This document shows, one piece after another, positions 5,921 to 16,764 of a stretch of DNA of 23,734 nucleotides (its first letter is position 1; every line of letters begins with the position of its first letter). A program made the position numbers and the translations under genes. Origin of the DNA: a virus. The DNA is taken from positions 1 to 23,734 of the IMG/VR virus record IMGVR_UViG_3300005294_000074. One strand, 5' to 3'. The notes beneath the pieces were generated by a model. The model searched no databases, was not told where the DNA came from, and was given only the letters and a program-made list of their open reading frames with translations.

Positions 5921-6090
5921 GGCCAATCCTCCTCCTTGAGGTCCCTGCTGGGCGGCTCGCGCCGTGCGGCTGCGCGGGCGTCTATCTCGCGCAGGATGGC
6001 TTCAGCCTCGTCCACAGAGCCAGCAGCGCCCACAAAGTCGGCGGCGCGAATCGTCGCCGCCATCATCGCTATCAGTTCGCGCTCGCTCAT
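5917..6090 (-). CDS. hypothetical small acidic protein
   Basis: The encoded protein has 57 residues: MSERELIAMMAATIRAADF, a second helix SVDEAEAILREIDARAAARR, and an acidic end DLKEEDWP. AGGAG lies six bases before the ATG, and the stop overlaps the next start as ATGA. One base separates it from the upstream gene. It is short, but the strong ribosome site and fit in the operon support it. Confidence 0.72.
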   Translation of the reverse strand: MSERELIAMMAATIRAADFVGAAGSVDEAEAILREIDARAAARREPPSRDLKEEDWP

Positions 6091-6265: not shown

Positions 6266-6621
6266 CGCTTTGCCTCCTTCGTCTCGGTTTCATTGGTTGC
6301 GTAAACCCAGTGCCCGCCAATAGATTGCCGCCTGAGCGCAATTACGAGCCAGCGTACAGCTTCGGCTTCCGGCGAATCTACACGCCACAGTTTGAGTTGC
6401 TCGTCTTCGATCAACTGAATTGCTTGCGCCCACGTTTCGGCCTTCGCTTGTTGCACCGCTTCTTGCAAATTGGAAGCAGTGGCAATGAGCTTGGCGCATT
6501 CCTCGTCGCGCACATTGCAGGCCACGGTCAGCTCGCGCCCTTCTTCCTTGTCGCGGACGTGAATGTCAATTTGCCCGCCGTTCTGCACCGCATACCAGTC
6601 TCGCATCAAGTGCGCTTTCAT
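6262..6621 (-). CDS. hypothetical protein
   Basis: The 119-residue protein has an alternating strand/turn N-terminus (WYAVQNGGQIDIHVRDKEEG, ELTVACNVRDEEC) and then helices (LQEAVQQAKAETWAQAIQLI). A final part, AVRWLVIALRRQSIGGHWVY, is followed by a charged tail. It looks like a compact alpha/beta cytoplasmic protein. It is second in the leftward operon, directly after the helix-turn-helix gene with an ATGA overlap. I do not recognise a family. Confidence 0.75.
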   Translation of the reverse strand: MKAHLMRDWYAVQNGGQIDIHVRDKEEGRELTVACNVRDEECAKLIATASNLQEAVQQAKAETWAQAIQLIEDEQLKLWRVDSPEAEAVRWLVIALRRQSIGGHWVYATNETETKEAKR

Positions 6622-6839
6622 CGTCGTCCTCCCTTGTGCTCGAACAGCGCCTCATACGGCAGCTTCGTCACCTCGACGATGCGCGCCACGGCGTTGCCCG
6701 GCAGTTGATTGTTGCCGTCCAGCCAGTCGCGCACCGTCATGTAGGGCACGCCCCAGTGCTTCACCGCCGCGTTGAGCGAACCGTGAATCGTGATGAGTGC
6801 CATGAACTTCTTGCTTGGGCGCAGCCGGACGTTTCCCAT
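6618..6839 (-). CDS. Cro/CI-like helix-turn-helix regulator
   Basis: This 73-residue protein starts at the ATG at 6839. The segment FMALITIHGSLNAAVKHWG then VPYMTVRDWLDGNNQLPG is the classic shape of a Cro/CI-type helix-turn-helix: a scaffold helix, 'GSLNAAVKHW', a turn at GVP and a recognition helix TVRDWL. ARIVEVTKLPYEALF closes the domain. The ATG at 6801-6803 is a possible shorter start, but it would remove part of helix 1. No Shine-Dalgarno precedes the ATG at 6839, and a -10-like TAAACT lies only 14 bases upstream, so the message may have almost no leader, as for lambda cI. It heads the leftward operon and faces the 7067 gene, so it probably controls both directions. Confidence 0.82.
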   Translation of the reverse strand: MGNVRLRPSKKFMALITIHGSLNAAVKHWGVPYMTVRDWLDGNNQLPGNAVARIVEVTKLPYEALFEHKGGRR

Positions 6840-6981
6840 AGTTACCGTGCGCAAGTTTACGGTATGCGTGAATCGCGTCAACACTTTTGTGCGCGTCGCG
6901 TGCGATTGTCCGCAAGTTACGGGGTGCGTGAAAGTTGCCATGCGATTTGTGGTTGACGCTGGGCGCAGTTGGCGCACAATT
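6836..6981. promoter_or_regulatory. divergent promoter and operator region between the leftward operon and the AAA ATPase gene
   Basis: Leftward: TTGACG (6876-6881 on the minus strand), a 16-bp gap, TAAACT (6854-6859), then the start at 6839. Rightward: TTGACG (6953-6958), a 16-bp gap, CACAAT (6975-6980). A direct repeat beginning CGCAAGTT lies at 6850-6873 and 6911-6934, differing by one inserted base and two changes over about 23 bases. The first copy overlaps the leftward -10 element, as expected for an operator. Matches were found by eye, and the transcription starts are inferred. Confidence 0.6.
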
Positions 6982-7066
6982 CCGCGCGAACAGTCAAACA
7001 AAAGGGCGTCGGTGCGTTTGCTCTTGTCCGAGCGGGGCACCGGCGCCCAATCACCAACGGTAACTT

Positions 7067-8119
7067 ATGGAAAACACTACGGTCCCCTCCGCAGAGACGC
7101 AAGCAAACCCGTCAAGCAGCGCCACGAATTCGCCCAAGGCGTTGCACAACACGCCCGTTATACCTGGAGCGCAGTTCATGGCAACGCCGATACCCAAGCC
7201 CGTCGAACTCATCGGTGGCATTGTCGATCAGGCCAGCAAGCTCGCCATCGGCGGCGGCTCGAAGGCGCACAAGAGCTGGATATTCGCCGACCTCGCCCTG
7301 TCCATTGCCACGGGCACGGACTGGCTATGTTTCAAGACTGGCCCGGAACCGCAGCGCGTGCTCTACCTCAACTTCGAGATACCGGCCTACCACTTCCAGC
7401 GCCGGCTTGAGGCGGTCGCCGCGGCTAAGGGCATCACCGTGCCCGACGCGCTCGGCGTCTGGAACCTCCGCGGCTGCGGCATCGCCGTGGACAAGATCGA
7501 GTACGACCTGTCCCAGGCACTCAAGGCGTTCAACGCCGCCATGTTCATCACCGACCCACTCTACAAGCTGCTCGGGGACACTGACGAGAACTCCGCCAGC
7601 GAGATGGCGAAGCTGTTCAATTCGCTCGAAGCCATTGCCGTCAAGGCCAACGCAACGGCCGCCTACGCTGGCCACTTCTCGAAGGGCAACCAAGCAATGA
7701 AGCAGGCCATCGACCGGATCAGCGGCTCCGGGGTCCACGGTCGCGACCCCGACGCCATCATTAACTTTACGCCGCACAAGGAGACTGACGCCTACACCGT
7801 TGACGTTATCCTGCGCTATAACCCGCCAGTTGCGCCGTTTGTCGTGCGCTGGAAGTACCCGCTCATGGAACTGGCCCCGGACCTCGACCCCAAGACGCTA
7901 CGGGCCGGCGCCGCACGCAGGCAGTACTCCGCCAAGGAGTTAATCAACATCCTGCGGTTGCGTGGCACGATTGCGTCACGGAAGGAGTTCTGGGTCCTGG
8001 CCCACGACCGGCTCAACATGAGCGAGAGCACATTCAAGAAGCTGCTAAAGATGCTGGACACCGACCCGCAGGTGCGCCACGACGAGCCCGAAGTGTGGGC
8101 GTTCGTCGAGGCGAATTGA
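7067..8119 (+). CDS. RepA-like AAA ATPase / helicase-type replication protein (AAA_25 group)
   Basis: This gene encodes 350 residues. After an Asn/Ser-rich tail, a RecA-like domain begins at about residue 45. The P-loop GGGSKAHKS (62-70) is the variant form, with AHKS in place of GKS, seen in this phage/plasmid group. AMFITDP (158-164) is the Walker-B strand. GHFSKGN (202-208) and DRISGSGVHGRDPDA (216-230) match the sensor and arginine-finger region of the RepA/AAA_25 family, hexameric DNA helicases or primosomal ATPases. A C-terminal segment (about 285-345) contains YSAKELINILR and STFKKLLKMLD and looks like a small winged helix. The start is the ATG at 7067, with no Shine-Dalgarno in front. 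Its likely role is in phage DNA replication; the exact activity is unproven. Confidence 0.85.
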   Translation: MENTTVPSAETQANPSSSATNSPKALHNTPVIPGAQFMATPIPKPVELIGGIVDQASKLAIGGGSKAHKSWIFADLALSIATGTDWLCFKTGPEPQRVLYLNFEIPAYHFQRRLEAVAAAKGITVPDALGVWNLRGCGIAVDKIEYDLSQALKAFNAAMFITDPLYKLLGDTDENSASEMAKLFNSLEAIAVKANATAAYAGHFSKGNQAMKQAIDRISGSGVHGRDPDAIINFTPHKETDAYTVDVILRYNPPVAPFVVRWKYPLMELAPDLDPKTLRAGAARRQYSAKELINILRLRGTIASRKEFWVLAHDRLNMSESTFKKLLKMLDTDPQVRHDEPEVWAFVEAN

Positions 8120-8605: not shown

Positions 8606-8626
8606 TGTCAACGATGCCAGTTGACA
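8606..8626. promoter_or_regulatory. 21-bp palindrome, copy 1 (candidate operator)
   Basis: TGTCAAC, seven bases, then GTTGACA gives a perfect inverted repeat of seven bases per arm. The right arm contains the TTGACA -35 element of the promoter at 8621-8649. An identical pair of arms with the same 7-base spacing occurs at 10506-10526. It sits upstream of the small-gene cluster. A repressor bound here would block RNA polymerase; the binding protein is not known. Confidence 0.65.
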
Positions 8627-8649
8627 AGGTGCCGGGGTGCGTGTATTGT
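8621..8649 (+). promoter_or_regulatory. sigma70-type promoter for the accessory genes
   Basis: TTGACA (8621-8626) is followed by exactly 17 bases and TATTGT (8644-8649), a near-consensus housekeeping promoter. Transcription would start near 8656, giving a leader of about 200 bases to the ATG at 8855. The TTGACA lies in the right arm of a palindrome, so the promoter is probably regulated. Confidence 0.7.
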
Positions 8650-8822
8650 GCCCGTGCGATGCGAGATACATTGCACAACTACAACAGCAACAGGGGGCTG
8701 GCCAGCTTGTTCACGGCCTGCGCACGCGCTCAACGCGGTACAAGGCTTGCCTCAAGCCATGCCTCCACCAACTTTGCCGCCGCTCTGCGCCGTCGCTGCC
8801 CATCTTGGCCAGCTATCTCCGG

Positions 8823-8857
8823 CGCGGGGCGTGCGGCTCTCAAGGACAAACACAATG
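8823..8857 (+). repeat. duplicated leader, copy 1
   Basis: The 15 bases CGCGGGGCGTGCGGC (8823-8837) occur identically at 9435-9449. Each is followed by 17 bases containing AAGGA and ending in CACA before the ATG (8855 and 9467). It is therefore a repeated translation-start region, not just a repeated ribosome site. Confidence 0.7.
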
Positions 8858-9409
8858 AGCACAAGAGCAATCATCGCCCGCGCCACAAAGAGCGGCTTTA
8901 AGGGCGTCTATCACCACTGGGACGGCTACCCGCAGGAACTCGGCGCCAGCCTGTTCGCGCTATACAATGGGCACTTTGCCAAGGACTTGGCGCGTATGCT
9001 GCGCTACCTGATTGACGAGCACCCGGCAGGATGGTCAACGATCAACGGCGCTGACTTCACACAGCCGCCTGGATTTGAGGAGAATGGCTTCCACACCACA
9101 GGCCCAAACTGCTACTGCCACGGCGGACGGCACGAGAAGGGCAGCAAACTCACGCACAAAACCGCCAGCGGTTGCGGCTGTGAGTGGGCTTATGTGTTCA
9201 GTGCGCCCGGTCGCGTGGCCACGCTTGAGGTTTATTCCGCCTATCACCGCGACGGCAACAAGGCTATTGGCATGTTTGGCATGGGCGATCCGAAAGCCCA
9301 ATGGCGACGGTGCGGCACAATCCAGCTTGCCGGCCCCGGTGCGCCTGACTGGGAAGCCATTGCCGAAGCAGGCACTGAAACGCAACGTCCCGTTGTCAAC
9401 TTCGCTTAA
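8855..9409 (+). CDS. conserved phage protein of the WDGYP type, unknown function
   Basis: This 184-residue protein has an N-terminus beginning MSTRAIIARA, with GVYHHWDGYPQELGASLFALY at residues about 18-37. It continues with LARMLRYLIDEHPAG and a Cys/His part including NCYCHGGRH and GCGCEWAYVF. The 'MSTRS-x-I...HWDGYP-x-x-x-G' layout is common in phage and plasmid proteins without a known function. The Cys/His-rich middle may hold a metal ion. The ATG at 8855 has AAGGA eight bases upstream. It would be the first gene of the transcript from 8621-8649. The leader just before it is repeated before the 9467 gene. Confidence 0.82.
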   Translation: MSTRAIIARATKSGFKGVYHHWDGYPQELGASLFALYNGHFAKDLARMLRYLIDEHPAGWSTINGADFTQPPGFEENGFHTTGPNCYCHGGRHEKGSKLTHKTASGCGCEWAYVFSAPGRVATLEVYSAYHRDGNKAIGMFGMGDPKAQWRRCGTIQLAGPGAPDWEAIAEAGTETQRPVVNFA

Positions 9410-9434
9410 CCCTCAATCCAAGCCGCCTTCCCTT

Positions 9435-9469
9435 CGCGGGGCGTGCGGCGCTGTAAGGAGCACACAATG
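9435..9469 (+). repeat. duplicated leader, copy 2
   Basis: This is the second copy of the leader found before the 8855 gene, with the same 15-base core and the same 17-base distance to the ATG. The downstream proteins are unrelated, so only the leader was duplicated or is conserved. Confidence 0.7.
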
Positions 9470-9637
9470 AACGCACAACCACAGACGCTAACGCTGCCTT
9501 TTACCACGCTGCGCTTGACCAACAAGCACCGCGAGCAGGGCGGCCAATGGTTCTACACTGACCGGAACCTCGCATACGCCCGCTCGCTGCTCGCCGACAT
9601 ACAACGAGAGGAACCCGGCCTTGACTGGCACCTTTGA
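9467..9637 (+). CDS. hypothetical small protein
   Basis: The encoded protein has 56 residues. TLPFTTLRLTNKHREQGGQW is followed by FYTDRNLAYARSLLADI and a short polar end. TAAGGAG precedes the ATG at 9467. It looks like a small alpha/beta protein. It lies 57 bases after the WDGYP gene, with the duplicated leader in between. No family is recognised. Confidence 0.72.
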   Translation: MNAQPQTLTLPFTTLRLTNKHREQGGQWFYTDRNLAYARSLLADIQREEPGLDWHL

Positions 9638-9740
9638 ATGCCGCGGCACCGTCGCTGACTGGCACCGATGGCAGGACGCCGCCCCGCTTGGCGTGCCCGG
9701 CACGCCGACCGCAACCGCAACCCCCAACCGCGCCCGCTGA
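9621..9740 (+). CDS. possible 39-residue protein starting at TTG
   Basis: From a TTG at 9621, preceded by GAGAGGAA at fair distance, the frame reads MTGTFECRGTVADWHRWQDA followed by a Pro/Thr-rich end, closing at 9740. It overlaps the 9467 gene by 17 bases and fills the gap to 9754. The first half looks like protein, but the rare start and small size keep this tentative. Confidence 0.33.
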   Translation: MTGTFECRGTVADWHRWQDAAPLGVPGTPTATATPNRAR

Positions 9741-9753
9741 GGCGCTTTCGACA

Positions 9754-10014
9754 ATGAACACAAACCCCAACTGCGACAACGACAAGTGCGCCTCGCCGCA
9801 TGGCGAAGTCCGCGTGCTGCCCACTGGCGGCGACGGAAACGCTATTCTGTGCCGCGCCTGCTTCGAGCACGAGTTACGTTTCCGACGCGCCCGCAACCCC
9901 GAGCTGGGGCCTGACTGCCGCTTTGCCTTGCCTTCCTGGGACTCGCTCGCCGTCTATGCGCCCGCCCGCCTTGGCGCGTCCAACGCGCCGGCCACGAGCG
10001 CCGATGACCGCTGA
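9754..10014 (+). CDS. Cys-rich conserved phage-type protein
   Basis: This 86-residue protein starts at the ATG at 9754; a longer frame from a TTG at 9634 has a low-complexity Pro/Arg start. It has NCDNDKCASPHGEVRVLPTG, then GGDGNAILCRACFEHELRF and a tail with ELGPDC and LPSWDSLAVY. The CxxxxC and CxxC pairs suggest one zinc site. The combination 'GEVR-LPTGGDGN-ILCRACF...RN-EL...LP-W' is familiar from short phage proteins without a known role. The ribosome site is weak (GAGG at long spacing). It overlaps the next gene by 11 bases. Confidence 0.75.
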   Translation: MNTNPNCDNDKCASPHGEVRVLPTGGDGNAILCRACFEHELRFRRARNPELGPDCRFALPSWDSLAVYAPARLGASNAPATSADDR

Positions 10015-10180
10015 ACCGCTCTGGCCTGCCGTTCTCGCTTGGCTCCTGCTCTTGGCTTGGGCCACGCTCGCCATTCGCGTCGATTGCGCCGCCCTTGGCG
10101 TCGTTATCCTGCTTTACGTCGCTGGCAGCGTGCCTCTTTGCCTCCAGGACCGCCGCCTCGACCGCAAACACCGCCCTTGA
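10004..10180 (+). CDS. small membrane protein with two spans
   Basis: This gene encodes 58 residues. Hydrophobic stretches are AVLAWLLLLAWATLAI (about 9-24) and ALGVVILLYVAGSVPLCL (about 30-47), joined by RVDC, with a basic end (QDRRLDRKH). This suggests a hairpin in the inner membrane with the C-terminus inside. The start overlaps the preceding gene by 11 bases. Phages use such small membrane proteins for lysis or host-envelope effects, but nothing here shows which. Confidence 0.7.
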   Translation: MTAEPLWPAVLAWLLLLAWATLAIRVDCAALGVVILLYVAGSVPLCLQDRRLDRKHRP

Positions 10181-10212
10181 CCGCCCGCCATCTCTCAGCG
10201 TAGCTTCGCGCC

Positions 10213-10524
10213 ATGCTGCCGCCGTTTGACGCATGTTCGGCCGCCGTTGCAGGCCAAGTCTCAGGCCAACGCCGTCGCGCTCGCCCGCCTCGTAAATCCG
10301 CAACCGGCCAAGCCCTTGAACTCCAGTCCGTTGCCCTCCGCGATGGCACTGCCGATTCTACCCCCGTTCACGTTCGCGCCGCTCTCATGCGTGCTTGGGT
10401 CGATCTCCAGGAGATTGTCATGGCGCTGCGGGGAGTTGGCAAGCCAAAGCCGGTAGAAGCAAAGAACTCGAACGGCGCGAAGCGAGCGAGAGAGAGCGCG
10501 TCACCTGTCAACGGGGCGAGTTGA
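10213..10524 (+). CDS. hypothetical protein, uncertain
   Basis: The frame gives 103 residues. The first 35 are Arg/Pro-rich. The middle is more protein-like (GQALELQSVALRDGTAD, HVRAALMRAWVDLQEIVMAL), and the end RGVGKPKPVEAKN is basic. No Shine-Dalgarno precedes the ATG at 10213; an internal ATG at 10387 is an alternative start. The stop codon lies inside the second 21-bp palindrome. The gene could be real or a decayed remnant. Confidence 0.45.
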   Translation: MLPPFDACSAAVAGQVSGQRRRARPPRKSATGQALELQSVALRDGTADSTPVHVRAALMRAWVDLQEIVMALRGVGKPKPVEAKNSNGAKRARESASPVNGAS

Positions 10525-10526
10525 CA
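10506..10526. promoter_or_regulatory. 21-bp palindrome, copy 2 (candidate operator)
   Basis: TGTCAAC, seven bases and GTTGACA have the same arms and spacing as at 8606-8626, although the seven central bases differ. The right arm again contains TTGACA, but no good -10 element lies 16-18 bases further on. It stands about 90 bases before the HNH gene. Both copies are followed within 20 bases by GGTGCGTG. Confidence 0.65.
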
Positions 10527-10561
10527 ACGGTGCGTGAGTGTGCGACGCGGGACGGTTCCGG

Positions 10562-10612
10562 CACACTCTCCGGCGTATGCGCATTGACACACTCTCAGGC
10601 GTGTGTTACGTG
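10562..10612 (+). promoter_or_regulatory. candidate promoter with a direct repeat before the HNH gene
   Basis: TTGACA (10584-10589) is followed by 17 bases and TACGTG (10607-10612), a poor -10 match, with the ATG of the HNH gene six bases later at 10619. If used, the transcript would start at or near the start codon. Two 15-base copies of CACACTCTC-N-GGCGT lie at 10562-10576 and 10588-10602, around the -35 element, and an inverted GAGTGTG lies upstream at about 10536. Confidence 0.45.
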
Positions 10613-10618
10613 TAGCGC

Positions 10619-11086
10619 ATGGCCTACAAATGCGGCACCTGCGGCTGGGAGGGCGAAGTCGTCGGACGGCAACGTTGCATGGCGTGTAATCGCAACCGCA
10701 CTCGGCAATGGCGCAAGGACAATCCCGACAAGCGCAAGGCGCAAAAGGCCCGCTGGCTGTCGCGTCGCATTATGCGCCAGCCGGATTACCTCGTGAAGCG
10801 TCGCCGCGAGAAAGCGGCCCGCAATCCCGCTACGGTTCGCGCTGCGTGGCAGCGCCGCATCGCGTGGCTGGCTCAAGGCACCGCAACGCAAAAAGATTTA
10901 CACGACGCCTACGCGCTATCCAACGGACGGTGCGTTTACTGCGGGCGTCGCGTGAAATGTCGGTTCAACCACAAAGACCCGCGTGGCTTCGATCATATCG
11001 TGCCACGCATCAAAGGAGGAAAACATGAACGCGGAAACATTGTCGTCGCTTGTCGGCGATGCAACGAAATCAAGTCCGGTGAGTGA
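10619..11086 (+). CDS. HNH endonuclease with N-terminal zinc finger
   Basis: This 155-residue protein has CGTCGWEGE...CMAC (residues about 5-22) as a first zinc site. A long basic helix region (RTRQWRKDNPDKRKAQKARW, about 27-75) follows and probably holds DNA. The C-terminal HNH domain has NGRCVYCGRRV, GFDHIVPRIKGG (with the DH pair), then NIVVACRRCNEIKSG, the usual His-Asn-His metal finger with its own Cys pairs. Such enzymes are free-standing homing nucleases or take part in phage packaging and host-DNA attack. The place far from packaging genes suggests a mobile or accessory role. No Shine-Dalgarno is visible before the ATG. Its last 62 bases overlap the next gene. Confidence 0.88.
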   Translation: MAYKCGTCGWEGEVVGRQRCMACNRNRTRQWRKDNPDKRKAQKARWLSRRIMRQPDYLVKRRREKAARNPATVRAAWQRRIAWLAQGTATQKDLHDAYALSNGRCVYCGRRVKCRFNHKDPRGFDHIVPRIKGGKHERGNIVVACRRCNEIKSGE

Positions 11087-12936: not shown

Positions 12937-13532
12937 GCCTCCTCCTTCTGCGTCGGCGCAAGGGCGGCGCGGGCGACGGTGCAACCGGGCTGGTCCAGAC
13001 AAACGTGCGCGGAAGTGGAGCACCAGCAGAGGTCGGTGCCGGAATCGCGTTGGGTTGGCGTGCCGAGGAACCGGAGTGCCTTCGCGAGACGGTCCCGCTC
13101 GGCGGTTAGGCGGGCGATGTCGTTTGTTAGAGCTGTCAGGCAGTCCGTTCGACGGTCGCAGAACGATTGCAAACTGCGGTATTGGTGGTTGACCTGTTCG
13201 AGTTCTGCCCGCAACGCATCCCGCTCCTGCGCGAGTGCGGCAGCGTGTTGTTCACACGCAGCACGGATGATGTCCTCCTCCTCAACCCAAGGGACACGCG
13301 ATTGGTCATCAATCCGGCGTGCGGCCACGACCCACGGCGTCTCCGGCGCGTCGGTCTGCACTGGCATATCGAATCCAATGCACACGTAGTCCTTCGACGG
13401 CGCGTCGGCAGGCTCAGCGTGCAAAGCAGAGCAATACAGCTCGCCGGGCTGTGACCGGGGCTTGCCGCAGATGTGGCACGGCGCGTCGGCAGGCGGGGTG
13501 GGCGCGTGCTCCGGGTCAGCGTTCGTGTTCAT
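12933..13532 (-). CDS. Cys/coiled-coil protein related in layout to the 12078 protein
   Basis: The encoded protein has 199 residues. A Pro-rich start leads to CHICGKPRSQPGELYC (about 19-34), then DYVCIGFDMPVQ and WVVAARRIDDQ. A long coiled coil covers about residues 88-155 (AALAQERDALRAELEQVNHQ, LTNDIARLTAERDRLAKAL). The C-terminus adds CWCSTSAHVCLDQPGC. The CxxCGKP opening followed by a coiled coil repeats the plan of the 12078 gene, which suggests an old duplication. It has ATGA and GTGA overlaps at its ends. Function unknown. Confidence 0.75.
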   Translation of the reverse strand: MNTNADPEHAPTPPADAPCHICGKPRSQPGELYCSALHAEPADAPSKDYVCIGFDMPVQTDAPETPWVVAARRIDDQSRVPWVEEEDIIRAACEQHAAALAQERDALRAELEQVNHQYRSLQSFCDRRTDCLTALTNDIARLTAERDRLAKALRFLGTPTQRDSGTDLCWCSTSAHVCLDQPGCTVARAALAPTQKEEA

Positions 13533-13798
13533 GGTCGTGGGGCGGGTGGGTCGGAGCGGTTCGTCGCCGCCTTGTGTAGCGCTGTTCGGTAACGCTCCAT
13601 TTTCTTATCCGTCCAAGGGTGCGCGCCCAGCTCCATCTTCGACAGGTACTGCACAGACTTCCCGTAAGCTCGCGCCAAAGCCCGTAGCGACACCTTCGCA
13701 GCTTCTCGTTCTCGGCGCATCATCGCTCCCGTCCAGCGTGGGTCGTAATGGTAGCCGCGTCCCCCGCACTTCGGGCATACTGTTGAGTCATCGATCAT
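13529..13798 (-). CDS. zinc-ribbon plus XRE-type helix-turn-helix protein
   Basis: This 89-residue protein starts at the ATG at 13798; the frame to 13927 is a shadow of the GIY-YIG gene. DSTVCPKCGGRGYHYDPRW gives a zinc-knuckle-like start. MMRREREAAKVSLRALARA then YGKSVQYLSKMELGAHPWT is a clear XRE/Cro-like helix-turn-helix (scaffold helix, 'SLRALARAYG', recognition helix 'SVQYLSKMELG'). It ends in a charged helix. It probably regulates promoters. The 21-bp palindromes or the inverted repeats at 14175-14257 are possible targets, but no link can be shown. Confidence 0.83.
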   Translation of the reverse strand: MIDDSTVCPKCGGRGYHYDPRWTGAMMRREREAAKVSLRALARAYGKSVQYLSKMELGAHPWTDKKMERYRTALHKAATNRSDPPAPRP

Positions 13799-14165
13799 TC
13801 GGTTTTCCTCGTGCCAGCAACTCGCGCATGGCCGCAGTCGATTCCTTCGTCCAGTACTTCGGCCCCTTCCATGCGAAAGCGGATCGCGCTTCGGCGGTGC
13901 TGTAGCTGACTGTGGCGCTGGGCGCAACGTTCAATTGGCACATACCATACCGCTTGTACAGAACCTGCAACCACGTCTCGCGCCGCTTTGCGTCCCACGA
14001 GTGTTTCGCGACCGCTAGCGGGACAAATATGAGGTGCTTGCGGAAGTGCTTCAACACCGGGTTTTGGTAGCGGTGCCACCTTACGCGCACAGGTAAAGAT
14101 GCGGAGCAGCCCACGTAAACGATGTTGGCGCGATTGTACAAGCCGATGCCGTAGATGGTGTGCAT
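13788..14165 (-). CDS. GIY-YIG-like nuclease domain protein
   Basis: This gene encodes 125 residues. TIYGIGLYNRANIVYVGCSA is a variant of the GIY and YIG strands (here IYG and YVG), followed by LPVRVRWHRYQ with the Arg and His expected after YIG. The later part (LIFVPLAVAKHSWDAKRRE) resembles the third strand and helix of the fold. Many such single-domain proteins are mobile or recombination nucleases. The GIY part is degenerate, so activity is uncertain. I use the ATG at 14165; an in-frame GTG at 14243 would add 26 basic residues. It is the first gene of the leftward accessory block and overlaps the next gene by 11 bases. Confidence 0.72.
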   Translation of the reverse strand: MHTIYGIGLYNRANIVYVGCSASLPVRVRWHRYQNPVLKHFRKHLIFVPLAVAKHSWDAKRRETWLQVLYKRYGMCQLNVAPSATVSYSTAEARSAFAWKGPKYWTKESTAAMRELLARGKPNDR

Positions 14166-14174
14166 AAGAAGAAT

Positions 14175-14257
14175 CGTCCGTCGCTTGTGAAATCCTGCCG
14201 TGAGGCGAGAGGGCTTGCGCCCACGACGGACGAAAATCGACACCGGCTGGATTTCAC
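14175..14257. promoter_or_regulatory. interleaved inverted repeats in the divergent intergenic region
   Basis: CGTCCGTCG (14175-14183) matches CGACGGACG (14224-14232), and GTGAAATCC (14187-14195) matches GGATTTCAC (14249-14257). Each is a perfect nine-base inverted pair. Their order is A, B, A', B', so they cannot form nested hairpins but could form a pseudoknot or act as separate operator half-sites. The GTG alternative start of the GIY-YIG gene falls inside this span. Confidence 0.6.
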
Positions 14258-14303
14258 GATCCGACTCTGCGGCACGCCCGCTCGAAAGTCAAGCACAGCG
14301 AGC

Positions 14304-14602: not shown

Positions 14603-16764
14603 TGGCGGTCAATATCCAGATGCGGCGTGACACTGCCGCGAACTGGGCCGCGGTCAACCCGCTTCTTGCCGAGGGCGAGTGGGCGCTGGAACTGGACACG
14701 CTCAAGGCGAAGGTGGGCGACGGCATCACGCTCTACAACGCGCTGCCGTACTGGGTCGAGCCCGCTGCGGCGACGAGCGCCCAGCCCACGTCGGCGCAAT
14801 TCAGCGCCCTGTCCGCGAAGGTGGAGGTCGTCAGCAACGCCGTCAGCGTCGTGTCGCAGGCGCTCTCGATCGAGACGGCGGCCCGCGTCGCCGCTGACAA
14901 CACCATCTCCAACGCCGCCAGCAATGCGATGAGCGTTGCGAACGCCGCGTCCAACGCAGCCTCCATAGTCAGTCAGGCCCTGAGCGTCGAGACTGCCGCC
15001 CGCGTCCTCGCCGTGAACACAGTGTCCACTGCTGCGTCCAATGCGCTCTCCGTAGCCAATGCAGCCAGCAACGCGGCGTCCATCGTATCGGCAGCCGTGG
15101 ACGTGGTGTCGAACGCATTGTCCGCAGAAGTAGTCGCACGCACCGCCGCTGACAATGCCGTTTCGGCGCAAGCCGCCAGCGCCATCAACGTCGTGAGCGC
15201 GTTCGTCGCGAACGTCTCGGTGAAGTCCGTAGGCGGCACCTCCGTCAAGGGCTTGCAGAGCGTGGTCAACGCGCTCTCGAACCGGCTGTCAGCAGCCGGC
15301 ACGGGCAGCGTCACGAGCGCCGAAGTGCAGGCTGTATCGGCGCAGGCCGCTTCGGCCATCAACGTAGTCTCGGCGCGTGTCGTCAGCGTGTCTGCGGAGC
15401 TGGTGTCGCTTGTCCAGATTGCGAGTGCAGCGGCGACCTCGGCCGACGCGCACGCCAATACGGTGTCAGCCCGCGTAGTGAGCGTTAGCGCGGAATTGGC
15501 GAGCCTCGTGCAGATAGCGAGTGCCGCCGCCACCTCTGCCGATGCCCATGCCAACGCCGCTTCTGCTGCAGCAACCAGCGCCGATGCCCACGCGAACACT
15601 GTCAGCGCGCGTGTCGTGTCCGTGAGCGCTGAGCTTGCGTCGCTCGTCCAGATCGCATCGGCAGCGGCAACGTCCGCAGACGCACATGCGAACACCGCAT
15701 CAGCCGCCGCGACATCCGTGAACGCTCGCGTCACATCGGTCAACGCCTTCATCTCTGGCATCTCGGCTCGCTCCGTTGGCGGCGTCTCTACGCACGGTTT
15801 GCAGAGCGTCGTGGACGCGCTGTCCAACCGCATCTCCGCAGGTGGCAGCGGCGGAAGCGTGACCAGCGCCGAGGTTCAAGCCGTCAGCGCCCAAGCTGCA
15901 TCCGCCATCAACGTCGTCAGCGCACGCGTCGTCAGCGTGAGCGCGGAATTGGCCAGCCTCGTCCAGATTGCCTCTCTCGCCGCGACCAGTGCGGACGCCC
16001 ATGCCAACGCGGCTTCAGGTGCCGCCACCAGCGTGCTCAACTTCGTGCAGGGCGTCTCCGTCAAATCTGTCGGCGGCACCTCGGTGAAGGGGCTGCAAAG
16101 CGTCGTCAACGCTTTGTCCAACCGCATCAGCGCCGTCGTTGCCGGAGCGGCCAGCGTCACCAGCGCCGAACTCGCCTCCGTCGATGCCCGCGTGAACAGC
16201 GTCAACACCTTCTTGAGCGGCATCTCAGCCCGCTCCGTCGGCGACATATCCACGCACGGCGTTCAGAGCGTTGTGAACGCGCTCTCTGCCCAGATCGCTG
16301 CGCTCCGGGGTGAACAGCGCGTCCTAGCCGCCACCTTCACCTGCTCCATCCTGAGCGCCATCGGCGGCTTGAGCCTGTCCGTCGTGGCCAACGGCGTTTA
16401 CGAGATACGGGCGAAGTTCATGGTCAGCGCCACCACCGGCCAACCCTACTTCATGCGCTGGAGTGCGCCCGTCATGTCGAACTGCGGCGGGTTCTGGCTT
16501 GGCGCGCTCTCCGTCGGCGTCGGCGGTTCGGTTGCCGCCATCACGGCCAAGATGGTGTTCGCGAACTTCGACCAGACGCAGAACAACAACACGGCGTTCA
16601 CCTGCACGCGCGGCGCAACCTTCAACATCATGCCGGTGCAGATGGAGGGCGTCTTCGTCGTGGGCGGTGCTGGCGGCCAGTTCGTCTTCAAGGTCGGCAC
16701 AGCCACCGGGCAGCTCGTCGCGGTCTTCCCCGGCTCCTTCAGCCGCGCAATCAGGCTCGCGTGA
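14602..16764 (+). CDS. receptor-binding tail fibre with repetitive Ser/Ala shaft
   Basis: This gene encodes 720 residues. Residues 1-52 contain IQMRRDTAANWAAVNPLL and KVGDGITLYNALPYW, the short N-terminal domain found in many tail fibres (as in Mtd), which attaches the fibre. Residues 60-570 form a long Ala/Ser/Val-rich shaft with four copies of VVSVSAEL-x-SLVQIAS plus AATSADAHA (about 260, 292, 338, 444). It also has four copies of SVGG-x-S-x-x-GLQSVV-x-AL (about 209, 391, 489, 545). Residues 570-720 are strand-rich with Cys and aromatic residues (TFTCSILSAIGG, YFMRWSAPV) and are the likely receptor head. GGAGGAGG precedes the ATG. The fibre is probably a trimer. Confidence 0.9.
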   Translation: MAVNIQMRRDTAANWAAVNPLLAEGEWALELDTLKAKVGDGITLYNALPYWVEPAAATSAQPTSAQFSALSAKVEVVSNAVSVVSQALSIETAARVAADNTISNAASNAMSVANAASNAASIVSQALSVETAARVLAVNTVSTAASNALSVANAASNAASIVSAAVDVVSNALSAEVVARTAADNAVSAQAASAINVVSAFVANVSVKSVGGTSVKGLQSVVNALSNRLSAAGTGSVTSAEVQAVSAQAASAINVVSARVVSVSAELVSLVQIASAAATSADAHANTVSARVVSVSAELASLVQIASAAATSADAHANAASAAATSADAHANTVSARVVSVSAELASLVQIASAAATSADAHANTASAAATSVNARVTSVNAFISGISARSVGGVSTHGLQSVVDALSNRISAGGSGGSVTSAEVQAVSAQAASAINVVSARVVSVSAELASLVQIASLAATSADAHANAASGAATSVLNFVQGVSVKSVGGTSVKGLQSVVNALSNRISAVVAGAASVTSAELASVDARVNSVNTFLSGISARSVGDISTHGVQSVVNALSAQIAALRGEQRVLAATFTCSILSAIGGLSLSVVANGVYEIRAKFMVSATTGQPYFMRWSAPVMSNCGGFWLGALSVGVGGSVAAITAKMVFANFDQTQNNNTAFTCTRGATFNIMPVQMEGVFVVGGAGGQFVFKVGTATGQLVAVFPGSFSRAIRLA
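15370..16000 (+). repeat. fibre shaft protein repeats, divergent at DNA level
   Basis: Four protein copies of VVSVSAELxSLVQIAS are encoded with clearly different synonymous codons: serine is TCG in some places and AGC or AGT in others, alanine GCG, GCC and GCA are mixed, and leucine is TTG or CTT/CTC. The protein repeats are therefore almost identical while the DNA is not. Confidence 0.7.

Follow-up and report, generated by a model that had tools for sequence, protein, structure and literature searches.

A 21-bp palindrome, TGTCAAC-N7-GTTGACA, carried twice by the phage DNA analysed here, is probably an operator whose repressor would cover the –35 hexamer of successive early operons. We also lean towards the view that these operons are headed by the operator–promoter together with a pseudoknotted leader, which would represent a new cis-acting class of phage RNA that governs translation or shields the 5′ ends of early messages. 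The analysed stretch (hereafter the window) comprises 23,734 bases, a virus record representing a fragment of an uncultivated phage, in which Sak4-like and exonuclease genes (left) are followed by an AAA_25 gene, small early genes, and structural genes (right). The features surrounding the palindromes are:

7067–8119: AAA_25 gene, primase/helicase-type
8606–8626, + strand: putative operator copy 1, TGTCAAC-GATGCCA-GTTGACA, exact, with exact or near copies at promoters of three relatives (G016, G017, and G018)
8621–8649, + strand: copy 1 promoter, with –35 TTGACA (8621–8626) in the right arm, a 17-bp spacer, and –10 TATTGT (8644–8649)
8855–9409, + strand: first gene of the copy 1 operon, with a PHROG 1987 N-terminus, function not assigned
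10213–10524, + strand: gene of a conserved 103-aa protein, preceding copy 2 and serving as syntenic anchor in relatives
10506–10526, + strand: putative operator copy 2, TGTCAAC-GGGGCGA-GTTGACA, exact, at the same place as G016 site CGTCCACGAACGCAGTTGACA
10521–10548, + strand: probably decayed copy 2 promoter, with TTGACA, a 16-bp spacer ending in GTG, and CGACGC (vs. TAGGCT in G016)
10619–11086, + strand: HNH endonuclease gene, downstream of copy 2

Both palindromes reported in an earlier note on this DNA were present without a single mismatch and as perfect dyads, and no further site with up to three mismatches was found in the window. The description given there needed refinement on three points. 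The central seven bases are indeed not identical, but GATGCCA and GGGGCGA agree at 4/7 positions (G..GC.A); copy 1 lies in a real gap before a gene group, whereas copy 2 lies over the last codons and TGA stop of the 103-aa gene; and GGTGCGTG does follow both copies, but at unequal distances (9 vs. 2 bases). This last sequence occurs eight times in the window (vs. 2.4 expected), and at copy 1 it forms the promoter spacer ahead of the –10. The claim that the right arm of copy 1 lies within a near-consensus promoter held, with TTGACA-17-TATTGT being the top match between positions 6000 and 14600; transcription would be expected to start near 8656. Since a repeated palindrome with 7-bp arms (any arm, spacer of 0–14) also arose in 32 of 300 shuffles (about 11%), the pair alone constitutes modest evidence. 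With 200 permuted-arm controls in the window (up to two mismatches), a mean of 0.04 and a maximum of one site were obtained, against the two exact sites observed.

Relatives were collected with two proteins as queries: the portal-like protein (773 aa) yielded 15 relatives, and the 103-aa protein encoded next to copy 2 yielded three more, i.e., G016 (59.7 kb), G017 (49.8 kb), and G018 (18.0 kb). Genome G010 (56.7 kb, or about 57 kb) is syntenic with the left half of the window. The AAA_25 protein retrieved no relatives among viral contigs, and the AAA protein of G016 retrieved G016 and G017 only. In 84,980 genomes of bacteria and archaea, neither the portal-like nor the 103-aa protein had kin, and a search of 50,697 phage records with the former was equally without matches.

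The element occurs five times in G016 and four times each in G017 and G018, always in the early region and always with its right arm as the –35 of a sigma-70-type promoter that has a –10; the window has two copies, one of them with a –10. The G016 sites lie at 15530, 16759, 17581, 19993, and 23684, with TGTCAACTAAACCGCTTGACA, CGTCAACCAACGCACTTGACA, TGTCAACGCCAATAGTTGACA, and CGTCCACGAACGCAGTTGACA grouped within 4.5 kb of the early region and the fifth, TGTAAAGCGCGGCACTTGACA, situated ahead of the operon of an HTH_31 protein. The –10 hexamers of the relatives, 16–18 bp downstream, are TATGGT, TATCTT, TATATT, TAGGCT, and TAGAGT. Placement is syntenic as well: in G016 and G017 the element both follows the 103-aa gene and precedes the first small-gene operon, in G018 it follows the 103-aa gene, and at the place equivalent to copy 1 G017 has the same TTGACA-17-TATTGT. 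Exact sites occur in both the window lineage and the G016/G018 lineage (G018 having an exact site with a different core), as do near sites, all in the early region. Many copies in coding regions were not found, nor was a lack of conservation in relatives: the element is conserved at corresponding places. Because G016, G017, and G018 are closely related in this region, these genomes count as two independent lineages rather than four.

The spacing of the arms is likewise fixed. Among the 75 TTGACA hexamers in the four motif-bearing genomes, 17 had a TGTCAA arm (up to one mismatch) at a gap of 9, orthologous sites entering this count more than once, while for each of the remaining gaps between 0 and 21 the arm accompanied at most 6 of the 75. 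Permuted-arm controls averaged 0.04–0.20 sites per genome, compared with observed counts of 2, 4, 2, and 2 for the motif-bearing genomes; G010, G009, G003, and G001 had no site. In a weight-matrix scan, element sites scored above 20, and the best score in the element-free genomes was 16.4 (G003). The sequence, position, recurrence, and fixed arm spacing of the element are therein direct observations. When the core bases common to both copies were added to the pattern, an IMG/VR scan gave one match, in L003, a contig without evident relation; with the bare pattern, the matches listed were mostly single chance matches, though one of those listed, L132, corresponds to relative G016. An unrelated phage contig (L154, 1671–2262) carries four TGTCAA(C/T)CAAATT(A/G)(A/G)TTGACA copies, in two pairs 29 bp apart.

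The repeats ahead of gene groups, their overlap with the –35, and their conservation in relatives support the proposal of the earlier note that this is a repressor- or activator-type site. In the mechanism that we favour, the right half of the palindrome would double as the –35 of a host sigma-70-type promoter, and the left half would be extra sequence that puts the dyad centre near –40. A dimeric DNA-binding protein on both arms would then cover the –35 and exclude RNA polymerase, and copy 1 would in this way control the operon from 8855. Because the same operator–promoter heads successive operons, one such protein would switch the early operons together. That a protein binds here, that it represses rather than activates, and which protein it is are matters that we infer.

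A position of the dyad centre at about –40 is also the classical place of a class II activator, so that the same DNA element might act with opposite sign by aiding polymerase, the more so as several –10 hexamers are imperfect. We nevertheless regard activation as unlikely: the right arm contains a perfect TTGACA for which a bound protein would compete, and the promoters look strong unaided. Repression is the simpler reading, since a protein on both arms would cover a perfect –35.

As TGTCAA is the reverse complement of TTGACA, the palindrome could also consist of the back-to-back –35 hexamers of divergent promoters, free of any regulator. One site conforms to this arrangement: G016 16759 (L285 16680) has a –10 on both sides (TATCGT leftward) and a gene on each side, including a leftward one. 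However, at 7/8 sites no leftward –10 (at least four matches) was present, such that the left arm provides no second promoter there, and the gap is strictly constant at 9, a constraint that independent promoters would not require. This explanation is accordingly quite improbable, and the divergent pair at G016 16759 shares one operator that could shut two promoters at once.

Similarly improbable, and slightly more so, is a chance repeat, or a pair of recombination sites bounding a cassette. The shuffle frequency mentioned above fits the former, and the two sites do flank a small-gene cluster; but relatives have four to five copies of the element, at promoters and with an unchanging gap, which largely refutes both. 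Recombination is further disfavoured because the cores differ, so that the sites would not be expected to undergo crossing over. Least credible of all is an RNA hairpin formed by the palindrome in a transcript (for processing, termination, or attenuation): a 7-bp stem with a 7-base loop is possible and copy 2 lies at a gene end, but the transcript belonging to the element would be expected to begin downstream of it, there is no T run behind it, and the arm changes seen in relatives (CGTCAAC..CTTGACA and CGTCCAC..GTTGACA) break the dyad without compensation while retaining TTGACA, which points to DNA binding plus a –35 rather than an RNA stem.

A repressor operator of this kind most likely represents an ordinary, already-known type of phage switch. 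Lambda-type repressor/operator regulons similarly have a dyad over early promoters of several operons and probably a small HTH reader; here, in contrast, the arms and the core are 7 bp each and there is one operator per promoter without a tripartite array. The stoperators of cluster A mycobacteriophages are also a repeated site in a phage genome, and their consensus, too, includes a –35 in reverse-complement form (TGTCAAG). These L5-type sites are asymmetric, bind a monomeric repressor, occur genome-wide, and stop elongation (PMC9283540), whereas the present element is a dyad with 2–5 copies in the early region, all at promoters in relatives. We rejected a stoperator on account of the perfect dyad in both window copies and the restriction to the early region. 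Bacterial BirA boxes (e.g., TTGTcAACC-N14-GGTTgACAA) have nearly the same arms as TGTCAAC/GTTGACA, but N14–15 between longer arms, and belong to biotin genes (PMC545781). A BirA box was rejected as well, given the N7 between 7-bp arms at phage operons and adjoining genes that are not biotin genes.

The two window copies differ in state. In G016, G017, and G018, the site downstream of the 103-aa gene constitutes a promoter (TTGACA-16-TAGGCT or TAGTCT), whereas at copy 2 no –10 was found 15–19 bp from the –35. In an ungapped alignment, copy 2 and G016 were identical at 27 of 50 positions, with the arms, the –35, and the GTG spacer end kept, and G016 has a leader and an HTH_Tnp_1 gene at the place of the HNH gene. 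Copy 2 is thus probably the orthologue of this G016 site, its –10 having been lost and its operator remaining, and on these alignments the simplest inference would be that HNH insertion or later decay broke the promoter. The proposal that the two sites coordinate an accessory cluster and the HNH gene was not borne out, as copy 2 has neither a usable –10 nor a leader, which leaves any control of the HNH gene conjectural. The interval separating copy 2 from this gene contains, at 10562–10605, two near-tandem copies of CACACTCTC-(A/C)GGCGTRTG, the second of which has a dyad CACAC-N8-GTGTG.

For the protein that would bind the operator, the earlier note had named two helix-turn-helix candidates in the window, which come out differently:

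6618–6839, – strand: small repressor-like HTH protein (PHROG 3037) whose gene diverges from the AAA gene; the candidate that we disfavour
13529–13798, – strand: HTH_31/XRE protein carrying a CxxC motif; the candidate that we favour
14264–14292, – strand: promoter of the minus-strand cluster that includes 13529–13798, TTGACT-17-CAGAGT, palindrome left arm absent

The protein at 13529–13798 is our tentative first choice, on the circumstantial grounds of co-occurrence and of its own promoter. Its homologues are found in G016, G017, and G018 and not in G010, G009, G003, and G001, and in the former three the promoter of the homologue itself carries the element (TGTAAAGCGCGGCACTTGACA); the promoter of the corresponding window cluster is without the left arm. 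The recognition helices of the window and G016 proteins (GKSVQYLSK vs. GKSATHVSN) differ at the usual contact positions, and in other phages with relatives of this protein the motif was absent. Next in probability would be another phage protein, the one at 6618–6839 included, and a host protein seems the least probable source. The protein at 6618–6839 itself is disfavoured: its homologues in G010 and G016 have nearly identical recognition helices (PTILYRFLSKKD and PTILYRFMSKKD; that of the window differs), yet only G016 has the element. Between this gene and the AAA gene divergent from it, a direct repeat GCAAGTT(T)ACGG(TA/GG)TGCGTGA (6851–6871 and 6912–6931) was observed, and these may be operators of the protein at 6618–6839.

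The operon promoters of G010 are without the element. Instead, another 12-mer, TGACGCTACGCT, has precisely two occurrences in the 56.7 kb of this genome, at the two promoters syntenic with the window copies:

G010 32240 and 34173 (L036 about 12240 and 14174), – strand: TGACGCTACGCT sites

In G010, the promoter places thus appear to have been kept and the operator replaced, in keeping with a scenario in which repressor specificity differs from phage to phage.

Behind the early promoters (in the window and in L163, L036, L043, and L038) the leaders share a recurring A–B–hairpin–A′–B′ layout with a fixed geometry. Counted from the start of the –35, A lies at about 41 nt and B at about 72–74 nt, followed by the hairpin, A′ at about 110–112 nt, B′ at about 128 nt, and the start codon. 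Strand A is complementary to A′ and strand B to B′, and the predicted fold is therefore interlocking and pseudoknot-like. The window contains:

8656–8854, + strand: copy 1 leader, with A 8696–8705, B 8773–8783, A′ 8805–8814, B′ 8831–8837, AAGGA, and ATG
9410–9467, + strand: incomplete repeat of the copy 1 leader's 3′ half, GCGGGGCGTGCGGC..CT..AAGGA..ACACAATG, before the next gene
14174–14257, – strand: second leader, with A GTGAAATCC/GGATTTCAC, B TCGTCCGTCGT/GCGACGGACGA, hairpin GGGC-GCAA-GCCC, and ATG at 14165

Across 11 leaders from five genomes, the strands of each leader paired better with each other than with exchanged ones (permutation p ≤ 5e-5 for A and for B), the test windows having been set from the first leaders seen and three G003 leaders having been examined only once the geometry was known. 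The pair counts were made without the MAFFT leader alignment, in which A′ was misplaced. The A helices vary widely in sequence (GUCAACCUG/CAGGUUGAC, GUGAAAACUG/UAGUUUUCAC, and GUGAUAGU/ACUAUCAC), and so do the B helices (e.g., GCCGCGCG/CGCGCGGC and, in G003, the 17-bp GGUUCUGUUUAUCUCGU/ACGAGAUAGGCAGAGCC). A promoter-anchored scan at –37 kcal/mol or lower returned 11 hits in 334 kb of family DNA (several of them orthologues), as compared to one in 1.0 Mb of shuffled family DNA and seven in 2.0 Mb of unrelated viral DNA. A free pseudoknot search before start codons in GC-rich DNA gave no more matches than shuffles, so the argument for the leader draws exclusively on covariation, fixed geometry, and the promoters.

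The copy 1 leader is the weaker member, as its A is nearly self-complementary and its loop 1 is longer; a nested fold is stable for it too (z –2.7). The leader at 14174–14257 was found by the promoter-anchored scan and heads the cluster with the HTH gene 13529–13798. It ends in pyrimidines without a Shine–Dalgarno sequence, as do those at G016 16774 and G016 20008, and the occurrence of several such leaders suggests a role in translation. The leader of the AAA gene (7001–7066) has a 12-bp stem, GGGCGTCGGTGC/GCACCGGCGCCC, ahead of the ATG, unlike the pseudoknot leaders.

The fold appears to match no described RNA family, and Rfam gave no match for the leaders at E up to 5–10. The order of strands is that of HDV-like ribozymes, including phage theta ribozymes (PMC10879173), with A, B, hairpin, A′, and B′ corresponding to P1, P2, P3, P1′, and P2′, but the leaders sit directly before start codons. 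We rejected such a ribozyme given the missing Rfam match and an A′–B′ linker in the G003 52429 leader that, at 1–2 nt, is too short to accommodate P1.1/P4 and the catalytic strand.

Of the two elements, novelty lies more with the knotted leader RNA; if confirmed, it would be an undescribed structured RNA that serves several operons of one virus. For this phage family, which has no cultured member in the phage collection searched, the operator, its candidate repressor, and the orthologous promoters are now amenable to testing with reporters.
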